Part shown: in pieces, positions 3,433 to 12,727 of the stretch
How positions within the stretch are numbered: position 1 is the first letter of the stretch
Layout of the letters: each line of letters begins with the position of its first letter
Assembly (NCBI RefSeq): GCF_002278135.3
Contig: NZ_CP029425.2
Location: forward strand, 5,742,001-5,806,000
Length of the DNA: 64,000 bases
Direction of reading: 5' to 3'
From: Bradyrhizobium ottawaense
Lineage (GTDB): Bacteria; Pseudomonadota; Alphaproteobacteria; Rhizobiales; Xanthobacteraceae
Translations under genes and position numbers: made by a program
Notes under the pieces: generated by a model
What the model was told of the DNA's origin: nothing
Seen by the model: the letters and a program-made list of their open reading frames with translations, nothing else
Databases searched by the model: none

Positions 3433-4428
3433 ATGGCCCCCCGCGCCAATTGGAAGGGTTTTCTGCGTTTGTCGCTCGTGACCTGTCCGGTCGCGCTCTA
3501 TCCGGCCACTTCGGATACCGAGAAGGTCTCCTTCAACCAGATCAACCGCAAGACCGGCCACCGGATCAAGTATCTCAAGGTCGACGCCGAGACCGGCGAC
3601 GAGGTGACGTCCGAGGACATCGTCAAGGGCTACAAGGTCGACACCGACACCTATATCGAAGTCACCAAGGACGAGCTCGACGACATCGCGCTCGATTCGA
3701 CCCACACGATCGATATCGACGAGTTCGTGCCGAAGGCCGACATCGACAACCGCTATCTGATCCGCCCCTATTACCTCGTGCCCGACGGCAAGGTCGGCCA
3801 TGACGCCTATGCGGTGATCCGCGAGACCATCCGCAGCATGGACAAGGTCGCGATCGGCCGCGTCGTGCTGACCAACCGCGAGCACATCATCGCGCTGGAG
3901 CCGCTCGAGAGCGGACTGATGGGCACGCTGCTGCGCTATCCCTACGAGGTCCGCAGCGAGACCGAATATTTCGACGACATCCAGGACGTGAAGCTGACCA
4001 GGGACATGCTCGACCTCGCCAAGCACATCGTCGAGAAGAAGTCCGGCGCGTTCGACCCCGAGCTGTTCGAGGACCATTACGAGACCGCGCTGATCGATCT
4101 CATCAACAAGAAGCGCAGCGGCGCCCCGATCACCGCCAAGGCCGCGCCGAAGAGCGGCGGCAACGTCATCAACTTGATGGACGCGCTGAAGAAGAGCATC
4201 GCGAGCGAGAAGGACGCCGCGCCTGCGGCGAAGGTCGCCAAAGAGACCGCGAAAGCCAAGAAGCCGAAGAAGCGCGTCGCGGGCCAGCGCGAGATGCTGC
4301 TGCCGATCGCCGGCAAGGGCGGCAAGGATGCTGCTGCGAAGACGGCGACCAGGGAAGCGACCAGGGAAACTTCGAAGAAGGCCGACAAGCCGGTGCGCGC
4401 GCCTGCTCGGGCGAAGAAGGCCGGCTAG
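3433..4428 (+). CDS. ku: Bacterial Ku, DNA end-binding protein (NHEJ)
   Basis: Homodimeric ring protein that binds DNA double-strand ends and recruits ligase D in bacterial non-homologous end joining. The start ATG follows GGAG. The core Ku fold spans about 1-255 (NWKGFLRLSLVTCPVALYP, then KTGHRIKYLKVDAETGDEV, and later VLTNREHIIALEPLESGLMGTLL). The C-terminal tail from about 235 is rich in Lys and Ala (KAKKPKKR and APARAKKAG), as in rhizobial Ku proteins, where such tails aid DNA binding. At 331 residues it is slightly longer than the minimal family because of this tail. No ligD is in the window, so the partner is encoded elsewhere or the gene is one of several ku paralogues, which are common in rhizobia. 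Confidence 0.95.
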   Translation: MAPRANWKGFLRLSLVTCPVALYPATSDTEKVSFNQINRKTGHRIKYLKVDAETGDEVTSEDIVKGYKVDTDTYIEVTKDELDDIALDSTHTIDIDEFVPKADIDNRYLIRPYYLVPDGKVGHDAYAVIRETIRSMDKVAIGRVVLTNREHIIALEPLESGLMGTLLRYPYEVRSETEYFDDIQDVKLTRDMLDLAKHIVEKKSGAFDPELFEDHYETALIDLINKKRSGAPITAKAAPKSGGNVINLMDALKKSIASEKDAAPAAKVAKETAKAKKPKKRVAGQREMLLPIAGKGGKDAAAKTATREATRETSKKADKPVRAPARAKKAG

Positions 4429-5217: not shown

Positions 5218-5391
5218 ACGGCATTCGACTTCCCCTGTCATTTCCAGACCGACGCGCCTGCAGCAGCGCGCCTGCGTGACGGCCCGCCGCAGCCCACCCA
5301 TGTCCCGCGCGCGGGCCATGATCTGGGTCAACAGCATCAGGACGGCGACGTCTAAGCATGGAGGCCGGGTTTCCTCCCTGCCGGCCAGTCC

Positions 5392-6933
5392 ATGCATCCA
5401 GACCTTCCGTACTCCCAATTGAAAATCCGCCGCGTCCGGCTCGATACCGGCCGCGAGAACGTTGTCGTCGTCTCCAGGCAGTCGAAGGCGCTGCGCGCGG
5501 AGATCTTCCGCGGCTTCAGCCGCGTCGAGCTGCGTCAGGGCAGCAAGGTCCTGCTGGCGACGTTGCTGATCACGGACGACGATACGCTGGTGGCCCCGGA
5601 CGAGATCGGACTCTCTGAACCCGCGTTGCGGCGTTTCGGGCAAGGCGCCGGCACGCTGGTCACGGTGAGGCCCGCGGCGCCGCCGGAGAGCCTGGAAGCG
5701 GTGCGCGCGAAGATCCGCGGGCGAACCCTGAGCCCGGCCGAAATCGGCGCGATCATCAACGACCTCGCACATTATCGCTACTCGGACATGGAGATCGCCG
5801 CCTTCCTGATCGGATCGGCGAGCTTCATCACCAGCGACGAGTTGCTTGCCCTCACCGGGGCGATGGCGCAGGCCGGCACGCAATTGGTGTGGCCAACGCC
5901 TGTCGTCGTCGACAAGCATTGCATCGGTGGCATTCCCGGCAATCGCACCTCGATGGTCGTGGTGCCGATCGTCGCCGCCCATGGCCTGCCGATCCCGAAG
6001 ACTTCTTCGCGCGCCATCACTTCGCCTGCCGGCACCGCCGACACGATGGAGGTGCTGGCGCGGGTGAATGTCGGCGTCGAGGAAATGAAGGCGATCGTCT
6101 CGGCCTGCAACGGCTGCCTGATCTGGGGCGGACACGTGAACCTGTCGCCGGCCGACGACGTCCTGATCTCGGTCGAGCGCCCGCTGAGCCTCGATACCCG
6201 CGAGCAGATGGTCGCCTCCATCATGTCCAAGAAGATCGCGGCAGGCTCGACGCATCTGTTGATCGACATTCCGGTCGGGCCGACCGCGAAGGTCACCAAT
6301 GGCGTCGAGGCGATGCGGCTGCGCAAGCTGTTCGAATTCGTCGGCGACCGTTTCGGCCGCACGGTCGAGGTGATCACGACCGACGGAAGCCAGCCGATCG
6401 GCAACGGCATCGGGCCGGTGCTCGAGGCCAATGACGTCATGGCCGTGCTCGGCAACGACAAGGATGCGCCGCGCAACCTGCGCGAGAAATCGCTCCGGCT
6501 CGCCGCCCATCTGCTGGAATACGATCCGAAGCTGCGCGGCGGCGCCGGCTATGCGAGGGCGCGCGAACTGCTCGACAGCGGCGCGGCGCTGAAGCAGATG
6601 CAGAAGATCATCGACGCCCAGGGTCCGTCGACATGCAGCAGCGAGCTCGGATCGCTCAGCTTCGACGTCAAGGCGGCGCATGACGGCACCGTGTCCGCGA
6701 TCGACTGCCTGCGTCTTAACCGCCTCGCCCGCACCGCCGGCGCGCCGCTCGACAAGGGCGCCGGTATCCGCCTGTTCAAGAAGATCGGCGATCGCGTCGA
6801 GCAGGGCGAGCCGCTCTATCGTGTCTACACGTTCGACCGCCCCGAGCATGATCTCGCCGCCGATGCCGCCACCGAGGAGACCGGGTTCGTCGTCAACGGT
6901 CATGACGCCCTGCAAGGCAAGTCGGCGCCGTGA
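5392..6933 (+). CDS. AMP/thymidine phosphorylase family protein (archaeal-type)
   Basis: Nucleoside- or nucleotide-phosphorylase of the DeoA superfamily, 513 residues. The extra N-terminal domain of about 85 residues ([19 protein letters not shown]) is the mark of archaeal AMP phosphorylase rather than classical thymidine phosphorylase, which is about 440 residues. The phosphate-binding signature is [16 protein letters not shown], near 180-195. It differs from the KHSxGG of DeoA but matches the KHxIGGxPGNxT form of AMP phosphorylases. [18 protein letters not shown] follows near 205-222. Known members release the base from NMPs with phosphate to give ribose 1,5-bisphosphate. It heads a tight operon: its TGA overlaps the GTG of the next gene (6930-6933). 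Substrate preference cannot be read from the sequence. Confidence 0.85.
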
Positions 6934-7850
6934 GCACGATCGCGCTTCAGACCCTGCCCGGCGGCAGCGATACGGCAAAGCGCCTCGCGGCGCGGCTCGG
7001 GCTTGCCTGCAGCGAGATCGCCGTGCATCGTTTTCCGGACGGCGAGCTGCGCGTCGCCGTCGCGCCGGCGGCCGACATCACAATCCTCTATGCCCCGCTC
7101 GACCAACCCAACGACAAGCTGATCGCCCTGCTGTTCGCTGCGGAGGCGCTGCGACGCAACGGCGCGAAGCGGCTGGTGCTGGTCGCGCCCTATCTCTGCT
7201 ACATGCGGCAGGATGCTGCATTTCATCCGGGCGAGGCCATCAGCCAGCGGGCCATGGGCAATCTGCTTGCAACGACCGTGGACCGTATCGTCACCGTGGA
7301 TGCGCATTTGCACCGCACCCCCGATATCAGATCGGTCTTTCCGGGTATCGAAGCGGAGAACCTGTCCGCCATGCCAGCGATCGCGAACGCGCTGGCGACG
7401 AGCGGCATCGATCCCGCGACAATCGTGATCGGACCCGACAGGGAGTCCGAGCCCTGGGTGAACGACATCGCGAGCCGGCTGCGACTGCAGCACACGGTGG
7501 CGCAAAAGTCGCGGCACGGCGATCGTTCCGTGGCAATCAGTTTTGCCGATCCCGGCCTGCTCGCGGGACGGCCGGCGCTGCTGGTGGATGACATCGTCTC
7601 CTCCGGGACGACGCTGATGGCCGCGGCGAAGGCCCTGACGGCGATGGGCGCCACCGCCGTCGATGCGGTCATCACGCACGCGCTGTTTCCACCCGCGATG
7701 ACCGTCGCGTTCGCCAGCGCCGGCATCCGGTCAATCCGCTCGACCGACAGCGTTCCGCATCCGACCAACGCGATTTCCCTCGACGAGAGTCTCGCGGCCG
7801 CCTTGCGGTCCGAGCTGACGACGACACTTCCTCCGGAGACGAGGCCATGA
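6930..7850 (+). CDS. Ribose-phosphate pyrophosphokinase-like protein
   Basis: PRPP-synthetase homologue of 306 residues, with the two tandem phosphoribosyltransferase-like halves of the family. It keeps the metal/substrate motif VDAHLHRT (near 120), the flexible-loop Lys/Arg ([11 protein letters not shown], near 190) and the PRPP-binding loop [11 protein letters not shown] (near 215). The ATP loop reads [16 protein letters not shown]. The PGEAIS part resembles the class III (archaeal-type) enzymes and departs from the YARQDRK of the housekeeping enzyme. It starts with GTG overlapping the upstream stop by 4 bases, and its own stop overlaps the next ATG (7847-7850), so the three genes are translationally coupled. 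It is probably a specialised paralogue that makes PRPP from phosphorolysis products. Whether it can act on ribose 1,5-bisphosphate is an open question. Confidence 0.85.
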
Positions 7851-9442
7851 GCATCACCGTTCGATTTTGCGGCGCCGCCCGCACCGTGACCGGTTCGAGC
7901 TATCTGTTCCAGACCGCGACCGGCCGCTTCCTGGTCGATTGCGGCCTGTTCCAGGGCCAGAAGACGCTGAAGGAGCTCAACTACGGCGCCTTTCCGTTCC
8001 GCCCCGCCGATATCGATGCCGTGCTGCTCACGCACGCCCATATCGACCATAGCGGTCTCTTGCCGAAGCTCGTGCGCGCGGGATTCGACGGACCGATCCT
8101 GGCGACGCGCGGCACGATCGACCTCTGCTCCTACATGTTGCCAGACGCCGGCAGCATCCAGGAATCGGAAGTCACGCAGCTCAACCGTCGCAATGCCTCG
8201 CGCGGACGAAAGCAGGTCGCGCCGATCTACACGCAGGCCGATGCCATTGCATCGCTGCAATCGTTTCGCGCGGTCGACTATGAACGCTGGACCGACGTGA
8301 TCCCGGGCGTCCGCGCGCGCTACTGGAACGCCGGCCATCTGCTCGGCTCGGCCTCGATCGAGCTCGAAATCGCCGAACGGGGCGCGCCACGTCCACTGCG
8401 CGTGCTGCTGTCCGGCGATGTCGGGCCGGAGGCCAAGCTGCTGCAGCCCGATCCCGAGGCGCCGGCCGATTTCGACTACGTCATCTCGGAATCGACCTAC
8501 GGCGACCGGCTTCGCGAGGCCACCACACCTGAGCTCCGCCGCAAGCACCTCGCGGCCGAGGTGCGCGATGCCGCGACGGCCGGCGGCGCGCTGTTGATGC
8601 CTGCCTTCGCGGTCGAGCGCACCCAGGAGCTGATCGTCGATCTCGTCGACCTGATGGAGCACGGCGAGATTCCGACCGCACCAATCTTCCTCGATTCTCC
8701 GCTCGCGATCCGCGCCACCGAAGTGTTTCGCCGCCATGCCGAGAGCCTCGACCCGTCCGTCGATGCCGCGCGCCTGCTCAACTCGCCGCATCTCAAATTC
8801 ACCGAGACCGCGGACGAAAGCAAGGCGATCATGCGCCTGTCCGGATTCCATATCATCATCGCCGCGAGCGGCATGTGCGACGCCGGCCGCATTCGCCATC
8901 ATCTGAAGCGCTGGCTGTGGAACGAGCGCGCGACGGTGCTGCTCGCCGGCTTCCAGGCCAACGGCACGCTCGGCCGCTTCCTCCAGAACGGAGCCAAGGC
9001 CGTGCGGATCCAGGGCGAGGAGATCAAGGTCGCGGCTCGCATCCGCATGATCGACGAATATTCCGGCCATGCCGACGGCGCCGGCATCGCCAGCTGGATC
9101 GCGGCGCGCCGACCCATTTCCCGCGGGCTGTTCCTGGTCCATGGCGAGGAAGGCGCGATCGCGGGCCTCGCCGGACGCGTCGCCGAGCGCATCGTTCCGG
9201 CGGCCAGGGTCTACCAGCCGGTGCTCGACGATATCTACGAGCTCGCCGCGCCCGAACCGCGCGTGCTCGACGTCGATCACCGCCGGCGGCTCGCGCCGGA
9301 GGCCGTGACCCGTCTCGACTGGCACAACGAGATGTCGGAGCTCATGCTCGACATCAACGACAGGGTTGGGGCAGCCGCCGACGACCGCGCCCGCGGCGTC
9401 ATCATCCGAAGGCTGCGCCGCGCGCTGGAGGAGAAGGCGTGA
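7847..9442 (+). CDS. Metallo-beta-lactamase fold beta-CASP ribonuclease-like protein
   Basis: 531-residue member of the CPSF73/Ysh1-like beta-CASP family of zinc nucleases. The zinc ligands are visible in LLTHAHIDHSG (near 63-72), WNAGHLLGSAS (His near 163), LSGDVGP (near 188) and the C-terminal YSGHADGAG (near 405). The beta-CASP motifs ESTYGDR, AFAVERTQEL and ASGMCDAGRIRHHL are also present. Family members are exo- or endo-ribonucleases. It extends about 60 residues past the nuclease core with a helical tail. It is the third gene of the coupled trio and follows the PRPP-synthetase-like gene through an ATGA overlap, which suggests that it supplies nucleotides by degrading RNA. Confidence 0.9.
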   Translation: MSITVRFCGAARTVTGSSYLFQTATGRFLVDCGLFQGQKTLKELNYGAFPFRPADIDAVLLTHAHIDHSGLLPKLVRAGFDGPILATRGTIDLCSYMLPDAGSIQESEVTQLNRRNASRGRKQVAPIYTQADAIASLQSFRAVDYERWTDVIPGVRARYWNAGHLLGSASIELEIAERGAPRPLRVLLSGDVGPEAKLLQPDPEAPADFDYVISESTYGDRLREATTPELRRKHLAAEVRDAATAGGALLMPAFAVERTQELIVDLVDLMEHGEIPTAPIFLDSPLAIRATEVFRRHAESLDPSVDAARLLNSPHLKFTETADESKAIMRLSGFHIIIAASGMCDAGRIRHHLKRWLWNERATVLLAGFQANGTLGRFLQNGAKAVRIQGEEIKVAARIRMIDEYSGHADGAGIASWIAARRPISRGLFLVHGEEGAIAGLAGRVAERIVPAARVYQPVLDDIYELAAPEPRVLDVDHRRRLAPEAVTRLDWHNEMSELMLDINDRVGAAADDRARGVIIRRLRRALEEKA

Positions 9443-11092: not shown

Positions 11093-12727
11093 ATGAAGCT
11101 CGGCACCGCCATTGCGGAAATCATGCGGCGCGAGGGGATCGAGATCCTCTGCGGCTATCCCGTCAACCATCTGATCGAGCACGCCGCCAAGGCCGAGATC
11201 CGCCCTGTGATGGTGCGGCAGGAGCGCGTCGGCATCCACATGGCGGATGCGATCTCGCGGGTGACGTCGGGACGCAGCATCGGCGCGTTCTGCATGCAGC
11301 ATGGGCCCGGCGCGGAGAACGCGATGGGCGGCGTCGCGCAATGCTTCGGCGAGTCCGTTCCCGTCCTGGTGTTGCCGATGGGCTATCAGCGCCGGCTGGC
11401 GCATATCGAGCCGAACTTCAATTCCAGCGAGGCGATGAAGCCCTTCGCGAAATCGTCCGAGCCGATCATTCTGGCGACCGAGGTCGCCAACATCTTCCGC
11501 CGCGCCTTCACCAAGCTGAAGAACGGCCGCGGCGGCCCCGTGATCGTCGAAATCCCCTCCGACATGTGGAACGAGGAGGTGCCGGAGCCGCTCGACTACA
11601 CGCCGGTGCTGCGCACCCGCTACGGCGCCGACCCCGTGCATGTGAAGGAGGCCGCCTCCCTGCTCGTCAATGCGAAGCGGCCTGTGCTCTATGCCGGCCA
11701 GGGCGTGCATTACGCGCAGGCCTGGCCGCAACTGAAGCGGCTCGCGGAGCGGCTGGCGATTCCCGTCACCACCAGCTTAGGGGGCAAATCCTCGTTCCCG
11801 GAAACCCATCCGCTCTCGCTCGGCTCCGGCGGCCTCGCGGTGCCGCGCGCGGTGCCAAAATTCCTCGCCGAGGCCGACGTCATCCTCGGCATCGGCTGCT
11901 CGTTCACCGAAACGAACTTCGGCATCGCGATGCCGAAGGGCAAGACCATCATCCATTCCACGCTCGATCCCAATCATCTCAACAAGGATGTGGAAGCGAA
12001 AATCGGCCTCGTCGGCGACGCCGGGCTCGTGCTCGACGCGCTGCTGGAGGAGGTCGGCAAGTCCGTCACCGCGGACCGTGATGCCTCCGCGGTCGCGGCC
12101 GAGATCGCGGCCTCGCACAAGGAGTGGCTGGCGAAATGGATGCCGAAGCTCACCAGCAATGACGCCCCCTTGAGCCCCTATCGCGTGCTATGGGACCTGC
12201 AACACACCGTCGACATCGACAACACCATCATCACGCACGATGCCGGCAGTCCGCGCGACCAGCTCTCCCCGTTCTGGAAATCGACGAAACCCCTCACCTA
12301 TCTCGGCTGGGGCAAGACGACGCAACTCGGCTACGGCCTTGGCCTTGCCATGGGCGCCAAGCTCGCAAAGCCCGACAAGCTCTGCATCAATGTCTGGGGC
12401 GATGCGGCGATCGGCTTCACCGGCATGGATTTCGAGACCGCAGTGCGCGAGCGCATCCCGATCATGTCGATCCTGCTCAATAATTTCTCGATGGCGATCG
12501 AGCTGAAGGTGATGCCGGTCTCGACCGAAAAATATCGCTCGACCGACATCTCCGGCGACTATGCCGCGATGGCGCGGGCCTTCGGGGGCTATGGCGAGCG
12601 GGTGACGAGGCCAGAGGACATCATCCCCGCGATCAAACGCGGCATCCAGAAGACGAAGGAAGGCATTCCGGTGCTGCTGGAGTTCATCACCAGCAAGGAG
12701 ACGGAGGTGTCGCGGCCGGGGACGTGA
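11093..12727 (+). CDS. Thiamine-pyrophosphate-requiring enzyme, acetolactate synthase-like
   Basis: 544-residue TPP enzyme of the acetolactate synthase/benzoylformate decarboxylase/oxalyl-CoA decarboxylase superfamily. The N-terminal PYR domain (1-175) has the cofactor-activating Glu in VRQERVGIHMADA (near 43) and QHGPGAENA (near 67). The central domain covers about 190-340. The C-terminal PP domain carries the TPP/Mg signature WGDAAIGFTG followed 20 residues later by SILLNN (about 433-462). The start follows a good GGGAGAG site. It stands alone, with no acetolactate synthase small subunit nearby. The unusual HGPGAENAMGG stretch and lack of partners argue against branched-chain amino acid synthesis. 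The substrate is unknown. Confidence 0.85.
   Translation: MKLGTAIAEIMRREGIEILCGYPVNHLIEHAAKAEIRPVMVRQERVGIHMADAISRVTSGRSIGAFCMQHGPGAENAMGGVAQCFGESVPVLVLPMGYQRRLAHIEPNFNSSEAMKPFAKSSEPIILATEVANIFRRAFTKLKNGRGGPVIVEIPSDMWNEEVPEPLDYTPVLRTRYGADPVHVKEAASLLVNAKRPVLYAGQGVHYAQAWPQLKRLAERLAIPVTTSLGGKSSFPETHPLSLGSGGLAVPRAVPKFLAEADVILGIGCSFTETNFGIAMPKGKTIIHSTLDPNHLNKDVEAKIGLVGDAGLVLDALLEEVGKSVTADRDASAVAAEIAASHKEWLAKWMPKLTSNDAPLSPYRVLWDLQHTVDIDNTIITHDAGSPRDQLSPFWKSTKPLTYLGWGKTTQLGYGLGLAMGAKLAKPDKLCINVWGDAAIGFTGMDFETAVRERIPIMSILLNNFSMAIELKVMPVSTEKYRSTDISGDYAAMARAFGGYGERVTRPEDIIPAIKRGIQKTKEGIPVLLEFITSKETEVSRPGT

Follow-up and report, generated by a model that had tools for sequence, protein, structure and literature searches.

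In a 64,000-nucleotide stretch of Bradyrhizobium ottawaense contig NZ_CP029425.2 (positions 5,742,001 to 5,806,000; below, the window), three overlapping genes encode a predicted archaeal-type nucleoside 5'-monophosphate (NMP) phosphorylase (NMPP), a paralogue of phosphoribosyl pyrophosphate (PRPP) synthetase (Prs) that we call PRS2, and a beta-CASP zinc nuclease-like protein. Together they form an operon that is real, conserved widely in Proteobacteria and controlled by oxygen; it is built on the phosphorylase and has an unexplained Prs-like partner. On balance, we regard it as a FixK2/FNR-type operon that is induced by low oxygen and recovers ribose and phosphate from RNA or from NMPs; under such conditions the three genes probably serve to take RNA building blocks apart for the ribose they contain. 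A reading made earlier from the sequence alone (the sequence-only reading) had drawn a route from RNA through NMPs to PRPP. This outline is largely right, and the PRPP step is its weak point.

In the salvage scheme, every catalytic step of which we infer, the beta-CASP protein, judged by its fold and motifs, would cut RNA towards 5'-NMPs. NMPP, which strongly resembles a characterised archaeal enzyme, would convert NMP and inorganic phosphate to the free base and ribose 1,5-bisphosphate (R15P). PRS2, on the strength of its co-occurrence with NMPP, would move the R15P carbon into the pool of ribose 5-phosphate (R5P) and PRPP, and these compounds would then be reused, or burnt via phosphoketolase and acetate kinase. 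Nucleotide breakdown by way of R15P is described from archaea, and metagenomes hint at it in some bacteria (PMC9700705). The form described here is widespread among Proteobacteria, occurs in a culturable soil genus, is under known oxygen control and has a different second enzyme. If the scheme is true, RNA would be a source of carbon and phosphate, and possibly of ATP, for microaerobic rhizobia.

Layout, conservation and oxygen control

The three genes lie on the forward strand between 5392 and 9442, and the GTGA and ATGA overlaps by which the sequence-only reading had coupled them were confirmed. The features are as follows:

5318-5331, + strand: FixK2/FNR-type box ATGATCTGGGTCAA, beginning 74 bases ahead of the NMPP start codon
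5392-6933, + strand: NMPP (NMP phosphorylase), open reading frame (ORF) of 513 amino acids
6930-6933, + strand: GTGA stop/start overlap of 4 bases between NMPP and PRS2
6930-7850, + strand: PRS2 (PRPP-synthetase paralogue), ORF of 306 amino acids
7847-7850, + strand: ATGA stop/start overlap of 4 bases between PRS2 and the beta-CASP gene
7847-9442, + strand: beta-CASP zinc nuclease-like protein, ORF of 531 amino acids

Two genome samples were searched for the first two genes. Among 299 Pseudomonadota genomes, with the TIGR02645 cut-off for NMPP and E <= 1e-60 for PRS2, each gene was found in 34 genomes, and these were the identical 34 (33 of the PRS2 proteins also exceed their own cut-off; Fisher 1e-45, kinship ignored). 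In G249 and G255, two additional genomes, PRS2 was not found and the NMPP-like match stays below the cut-off; one of these matches is a fusion with PhnN and the other looks cut short. Among 385 alphaproteobacteria, with E <= 1e-110 for NMPP and E <= 1e-55 for PRS2, NMPP occurs in 58 genomes (54 over the cut-off) and PRS2 in 32, 31 of which also have NMPP. The only PRS2-bearing genome without NMPP is G383, whose locus L193 lies outside the 172 NMPP loci described next. A scan of genome contigs returned at least 586 pattern matches; the 80 named loci that were kept belong to Bradyrhizobium, Rhodopseudomonas, Azospirillum, sphingomonads, Caulobacteraceae, Gammaproteobacteria and others.

Gene order was compared in 172 NMPP loci, a gene being counted as adjacent when it lay within 1.5 kb on the same strand. 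PRS2 adjoins NMPP in 120 loci and the beta-CASP gene does so in 89, lying downstream in 65 and upstream in 24; 64 loci have both neighbours. Some species entered the set twice, and absences are overcounted in these figures because some contigs stop close to the gene. On an NMPP tree of 168 rows, adjacency changes 18 times for PRS2 (L068 and L069, which have a phosphoketolase gene in between, were coded as PRS2-bearing) and 21 times for the beta-CASP gene (upstream, downstream or absent). The unit has thus been repeatedly broken and kept or rebuilt, and the NMPP-PRS2 and NMPP-nuclease pairs are each also found without the third gene. The sequence-only reading had proposed a search for conservation of the trio; the shared 34 of 299 genomes and the adjacency in 120 and 89 of the 172 loci place it well beyond close relatives and exceed what chance would give. 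Loci L166, L172, L178, L171, L176, L158 and L160 have NMPP with no PRS2, nuclease or PhnN match in the stretch fetched; they come from alphaproteobacterial genomes of 1.4-2.2 Mb.

The box ATGATCTGGGTCAA occurs once in the window and forms the conserved block upstream of 12 aligned operons (Bradyrhizobium and same-genus loci), where this block reads CATGATcTgggTCAA. In B. diazoefficiens the identical 14-mer is given as the FixK2 box, at -74, of the operon bll3117-bll3116-bll3115 (PMC9104804, Table 2), where bll3117 is a thymidine phosphorylase family protein, bll3115 an MBL-fold protein, and bll3116 appears in the operon column only. For a fixK2 deletion at 0.5% O2 this source gives changes of -6.6 for bll3117 and -30.6 for bll3115. 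The same table contains the operon bll2518-bll2517 for phosphoketolase and acetate kinase (about -10) as well as ppsA (-14.2), so that both enzymes named above for burning R5P are listed as FixK2 targets (PMC9104804). Table 2 of another study names bll3116 a ribose-phosphate pyrophosphokinase and lists log2 changes under microoxia of 2.9, 4.4 and 2.1 for bll3115, bll3116 and bll3117; further fold changes of 15.4, 7.7 and 5.1 for the bll3115-bll3117 entries are taken here as protein and transcript values (PMC6515984). The B. diazoefficiens operon thus has the same annotated genes in the same order behind an identical box at -74. In these tables its genes appear as rows, with no pathway proposed there, and the likeness we draw is one of annotation, order and box.

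The operon is preceded by an FNR-like box with no more than 2 mismatches from TTGAT-N4-ATCAA in 30 of the 75 lineages compared, where single-base shuffles would give 7.3; at 1 mismatch the numbers are 10 lineages and 0.5. The 75 lineages derive from 99 clusters at 75% identity, after those with the nuclease upstream or with less than 300 bases of upstream sequence had been dropped. A count that ignores kinship gave 49 of 114 against 181 of 971 control ORFs. FixK2/FNR control of the operon is supported by these comparisons, FixK2-dependent microoxic expression having been published for the B. diazoefficiens operon only. The use at low oxygen that the sequence-only reading had considered fits both the box at 5318 and the published expression of this same-ordered operon. 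Its suggestion of a use in dormancy is conjecture, and so is the supply of NMPs by the nuclease.

The phosphorylase and the exits from R15P

NMPP scores 745 bits against the NCBIfam model TIGR02645 ('putative thymidine phosphorylase'; cut-off 434.6). Its best solved relative is 4ga5 (E 4e-102, about 42% identity), deposited under the title 'Putative thymidine phosphorylase', with 4ga4 also found; we take both to be the AMP phosphorylase of T. kodakarensis. We compared 98 columns that are each at least 97% conserved across 105 NMPPs: 79 of them agree with chain 4ga5, against 48 that agree with both members of a thymidine-phosphorylase-type set, which consists of two proteins picked by motif. 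NMPP also shares conserved active-site blocks with chain 4ga5. The family score, the closest structure and the residue counts all argue for an archaeal-type NMP phosphorylase, as the sequence-only reading had proposed; R15P would be its product by similarity to the characterised archaeal enzyme.

NMPP is of the same family as the first enzyme of the archaeal NMP shunt (pentose bisphosphate pathway), which in T. kodakarensis consists of the NMP phosphorylase TK0352, R15P isomerase and type III RuBisCO (PMC9700705). The later steps differ here. The genome is a single contig of 8.59 Mb whose named close relatives are Bradyrhizobium, and its only IF-2B protein reaches 137.6 bits on the R15P isomerase model (cut-off 314.1), which means that no archaeal-type exit from R15P was detected there; by eye, from an adjoining MtnP-like gene, this protein reads as MtnA. 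No R15P isomerase exceeded the cut-off in any of 46 NMPP-bearing genomes, 17 of which have no relative at E <= 1e-5; this is the co-occurrence search that the sequence-only reading had suggested. These genomes have PRS2, PhnN or other partners instead. A tblastn search of 157 loci with the genome's own RuBisCO and MtnA (IF-2B) as queries returned no match at E <= 1e-4. One RuBisCO large subunit gene is present elsewhere in the genome, away from the operon, and by eye follows an aldolase-like gene. The earlier statement that neither R15P isomerase nor RuBisCO is encoded here therefore holds for the window and fails, as regards RuBisCO, for the genome.

The known enzyme that turns R15P into PRPP is PhnN (PMC9700705). 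The genome encodes a PhnN elsewhere (223 bits, cut-off 156), as it does a housekeeping Prs. PhnN of E. coli handles the expected NMPP product; it has a P-loop kinase fold and is unrelated to PRS2. In four loci (L075, L163, L181 and L183) PhnN is fused to NMPP, the PhnN part scoring 164-192 bits against the cut-off of 156; in L075 the phosphorylase part falls under the TIGR02645 cut-off and exceeds that of NF003338. Fusion to the R15P kinase also speaks for R15P as the product of NMPP. The fusion is a single change on the NMPP tree, and such proteins are already in public databases, one entry being called 'putative Ribose 1,5-bisphosphate phosphokinase PhnN / thymidine phosphorylase'. Two further loci have PhnN beside NMPP in divergent orientation. 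NadC, a PRPP user, adjoins three of the four fusions, and the arrangement looks like a cassette leading from NMP to PRPP to nicotinate mononucleotide; phnN next to nadC has been noted in some Burkholderiales (PMC11452294). The fusion genes concerned are L163 7141-10079, L183 6320-9233 and L075 6925-9577, each beside a NadC gene over the TIGR00078 cut-off, and by eye L163 and L183 have TRAP/TAXI-like transporter genes further out. In L076, an NMPP copy at 9098-10969 matches over its first part only, is followed by unrelated sequence and looks cut short.

These fusions lend some weight to the proposal of the sequence-only reading that PRS2 turns R15P into PRPP as PhnN does. So did a first sample of 46 NMPP-bearing genomes, in which PhnN exceeded the cut-off in 9/9 genomes without PRS2 and in 7/37 with it, as if the two were interchangeable partners. 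The pattern weakened in a wider class sample, in which eight candidates were scored per genome: PhnN was found in 9/27 PRS2-less and 6/31 PRS2-bearing NMPP genomes, with a background of 49/327 in genomes without NMPP. Pooling gave 17/35 against 11/61 (96 genomes; Fisher p = 0.002), but the phylogenetic independent-pairs sign test gave a median p of 1, and the interchange is therefore not used for our best explanation. Chemically, the diphosphoryl group that Prs transfers is accepted by a free C1-OH, which R15P does not have. With RuBisCO elsewhere in the genome and a PhnN of its own, the formation of PRPP from R15P by PRS2 is unproven; given also a pyrophosphate loop that differs from that of true Prs (see below), we consider it distinctly improbable.

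Residues and possible reactions of PRS2

PRS2 scores 396 bits against NF005537/PRK07199 (cut-off 322), a subfamily that NCBI names ribose-phosphate diphosphokinase. Its best solved relative is 1u9y, which we take to be an archaeal Prs, and its ATP loop resembles YARQDKKFNPGEAIS of the 1u9y chain, not that of the genome's own housekeeping Prs; the non-housekeeping ATP loop described in the sequence-only reading is thus present. We compared 88 PRS2 proteins with 19 housekeeping Prs proteins (18 from NMPP-bearing genomes and that of the window's own genome). F35, D37, E39, R93, Q94, D95, H126, D170, K193, R195, D220, D221 and T228 are each kept in at least 87 of the 88, so that by alignment the ATP, R5P and catalytic residues of PRPP synthetase are present. 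In the E. coli enzyme, D170 coordinates Mg together with the C1-C3 hydroxyls of R5P, D220, D221, T225 and T228 bind R5P, and H131, with which H126 of PRS2 aligns, contacts the ADP phosphate and Mg (PMC9232217).

Two regions depart from this conservation. The loop following D170 (D170-x-E172-S173) has E172 in 87/88 and S173 in 83/88 PRS2 proteins; the same positions are Gly-Gly in 19/19 housekeeping Prs and in 1dkr, and Gly-Ala in 1u9y and 4twb. PRS2 therefore lacks the D-x-G-(G/A) pattern of the PRPP synthetase pyrophosphate loop. We assume that the 170s loop, which holds the pyrophosphate in Prs structures, has the same place in PRS2, as the alignment suggests; rebuilt from Gly-Gly to Glu-Ser, PRS2 may not carry out normal diphosphoryl transfer. 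At position 101, Gly is found in 88/88 PRS2 and Arg in 19/19 housekeeping Prs. By alignment this position corresponds to Arg105 of the E. coli regulatory loop, whose Arg102-Arg105 line the allosteric site (PMC6332680), and the regulatory-loop arginine is accordingly missing from PRS2. Constants new to PRS2 are W176 (84/88), H128 (88/88) and R129 (87/88).

The salvage scheme leaves room for several reactions at this step, and the two discussed next, like the PhnN-like one above, are alternatives for the PRS2 step alone. PRS2 might be a true PRPP synthetase without allosteric regulation (R5P + ATP -> PRPP + AMP), providing PRPP for re-salvage of the bases released by NMPP, or AMP for NMPP itself. 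The shared fold family, the ATP loop FPDGE, the RQD motif, the catalytic His, Lys and Arg, the R5P loop and the NCBI subfamily name are all in keeping with such an enzyme, and the change of R101 to G in all 88 PRS2 would fit a loss of regulation. It is harder to reconcile with the DxES that replaces DxGG, with a housekeeping Prs already in the genome and with the near-strict dependence of PRS2 on NMPP, which it accompanies in 34/34 genomes of the phylum sample and 31/32 of the class sample. We rate this reading as possible though doubtful.

The same altered loop would suit an enzyme that runs Prs chemistry in reverse with a single phosphate on C1, that is, an R15P:AMP phosphotransferase (R15P + AMP -> R5P + ADP). 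The C1 phosphate would be saved as ADP and R5P would pass to phosphoketolase and acetate kinase, amounting to a fermentation of RNA ribose. PRS2 keeps the R5P, Mg and ADP residues of E. coli PRPS (D170, D220, D221 and T228, with H126 for H131; PMC9232217), the G172-G173 found in every one of the 19 housekeeping Prs has given way to E (87/88) and S (83/88) in PRS2, and PRS2 is tied to NMPP, the expected R15P maker, with phosphoketolase joining PRS2-bearing clusters. To our knowledge, this reaction has no precedent; moreover, the pyrophosphate role of the loop is that of Prs structures and its place in PRS2 is taken from alignment, and the equilibrium is probably unfavourable unless pulled. We consider the reaction unlikely. 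The broader claim, that PRS2 founds an enzyme class, ribose-1,5-bisphosphate:AMP phosphotransferase, by which low-oxygen bacteria ferment their own RNA, we hold to be rather unlikely. Were it true, RNA would be degraded through NMP and R15P to R5P, with a phosphate saved as ADP, and on through xylulose 5-phosphate and acetyl phosphate to ATP. The route would be a bacterial equivalent of the archaeal NMP shunt that does without RuBisCO and is controlled by FixK2/FNR.

Relatives of PRS2 are numerous: among 7,998 scored, 4,241 reach E <= 1e-40, and the 120 of these that were listed were inspected. If the scheme is right, many of the proteins that carry a PRPP synthetase annotation may have another function, although the rest of the 4,241 may include true Prs. 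Beside the solitary PRS2 genes of Azospirillum and similar genomes, no informative neighbour was seen.

The nuclease-like protein, the possible fate of the ribose and neighbouring genes

The third protein exceeds the Pfam cut-offs for Lactamase_B, Beta-Casp and RMMBL, and its best solved relative is the RNase TTHA0252 (E 5e-67). The zinc motif HxHxDH (HAHIDH here) is present in 53/53 homologues of 400-560 amino acids, which also have E[ST]TYG (48), SGM (52) and SxHAD (46). These results agree with the beta-CASP RNase-like zinc protein of the sequence-only reading. Domains and zinc motif are shared with TTHA0252, aCPSF1/FttA and type VII Cas14. The protein reaches no named equivalog, however, lying far under the cut-offs for aCPSF1 (252 bits, cut-off 580) and Cas14 (325 bits, cut-off 800), and its gene, unlike theirs, is located in a metabolic operon. 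Of these two models, the protein encoded at 7847-9442 scores higher on that of type VII CRISPR Cas14.

Phosphoketolase genes lie within 6.5 kb in 6/172 loci, all of them in PRS2 clusters (5 changes on the tree, a figure without a chance control). Canonical forms are found in L049 and L086 and a divergent form in L062, L068, L069 and L072, of which L068 was checked with profile models. Acetate kinase lies within 12 kb in 5/172 loci; of the four copies checked, three exceed the TIGR00016 cut-off and that of L072 falls under it. The L068 genes run PRS2-phosphoketolase-nuclease-NMPP; the genes overlap at the first junction and are a few bases apart at the second. Such neighbours point to breakdown of R5P and not to base salvage alone. 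The divergent phosphoketolase-like family (L068 11346-13742, L069 4803-7181, L062 4712-7066, L072 4934-7600) is encoded in NMPP/PRS2 operons; the L068 protein is 24% identical to the canonical one of L049 and reaches 120 bits on its best model (cut-off 962). A 'PPDK' beside some operons turned out to be a phosphoenolpyruvate synthase in the one copy checked (L099).

Several results weigh against low-oxygen ribose salvage as we have set it out. In the open-access literature we found no assay of any of the three proteins and no paper on the chemistry of the operon. NMPP falls under the AMP-phosphorylase equivalog TIGR03327 (488.4 bits, cut-off 535). PRS2 was not found in 27 of the 58 NMPP-bearing alphaproteobacteria, several of them incomplete assemblies, and PhnN was likewise not found in 18 of these 27, so that R15P must leave another way there. 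Bradyrhizobium sp. Rc3b has a 98%-identical NMPP and nuclease with PRS2 missing exactly between them (L077 11500-11600), and a genome-wide search of this strain did not find it elsewhere. In PMC6515984, the entries for the trio have neither bacteroid induction nor a FixK2-target mark. Phosphoketolase is near the operon in only the six loci mentioned. Finally, the nuclease is not adjacent in 83/172 NMPP loci, and the link from nuclease through NMP to NMPP rests on gene order.

This last result implies that RNA supply is not essential to NMPP, and it would also suit an operon that makes or repairs nucleotides, with NMPP working in reverse (base + R15P -> NMP) and the nuclease having a particular RNA, or something other than RNA, as its substrate. 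Phosphorylases are reversible. No enzyme that makes R15P was noticed beside the operon, where no systematic search was made, and breakdown is what the neighbouring phosphoketolase and acetate kinase genes suggest; we therefore judge nucleotide synthesis or repair improbable and keep to salvage of ribose and phosphate as the best explanation.

Two neighbouring genes were recorded in the window. Upstream of the operon, at 3433-4428, lies a Ku gene (non-homologous end joining), and the Ku cluster recurs with the operon in 12 loci, which are Bradyrhizobium where named. At 11093-12727, 1.65 kb downstream of the operon, what is probably a separate gene encodes a thiamine-diphosphate enzyme that belongs to the PRK06154 equivalog (941 bits, cut-off 607).

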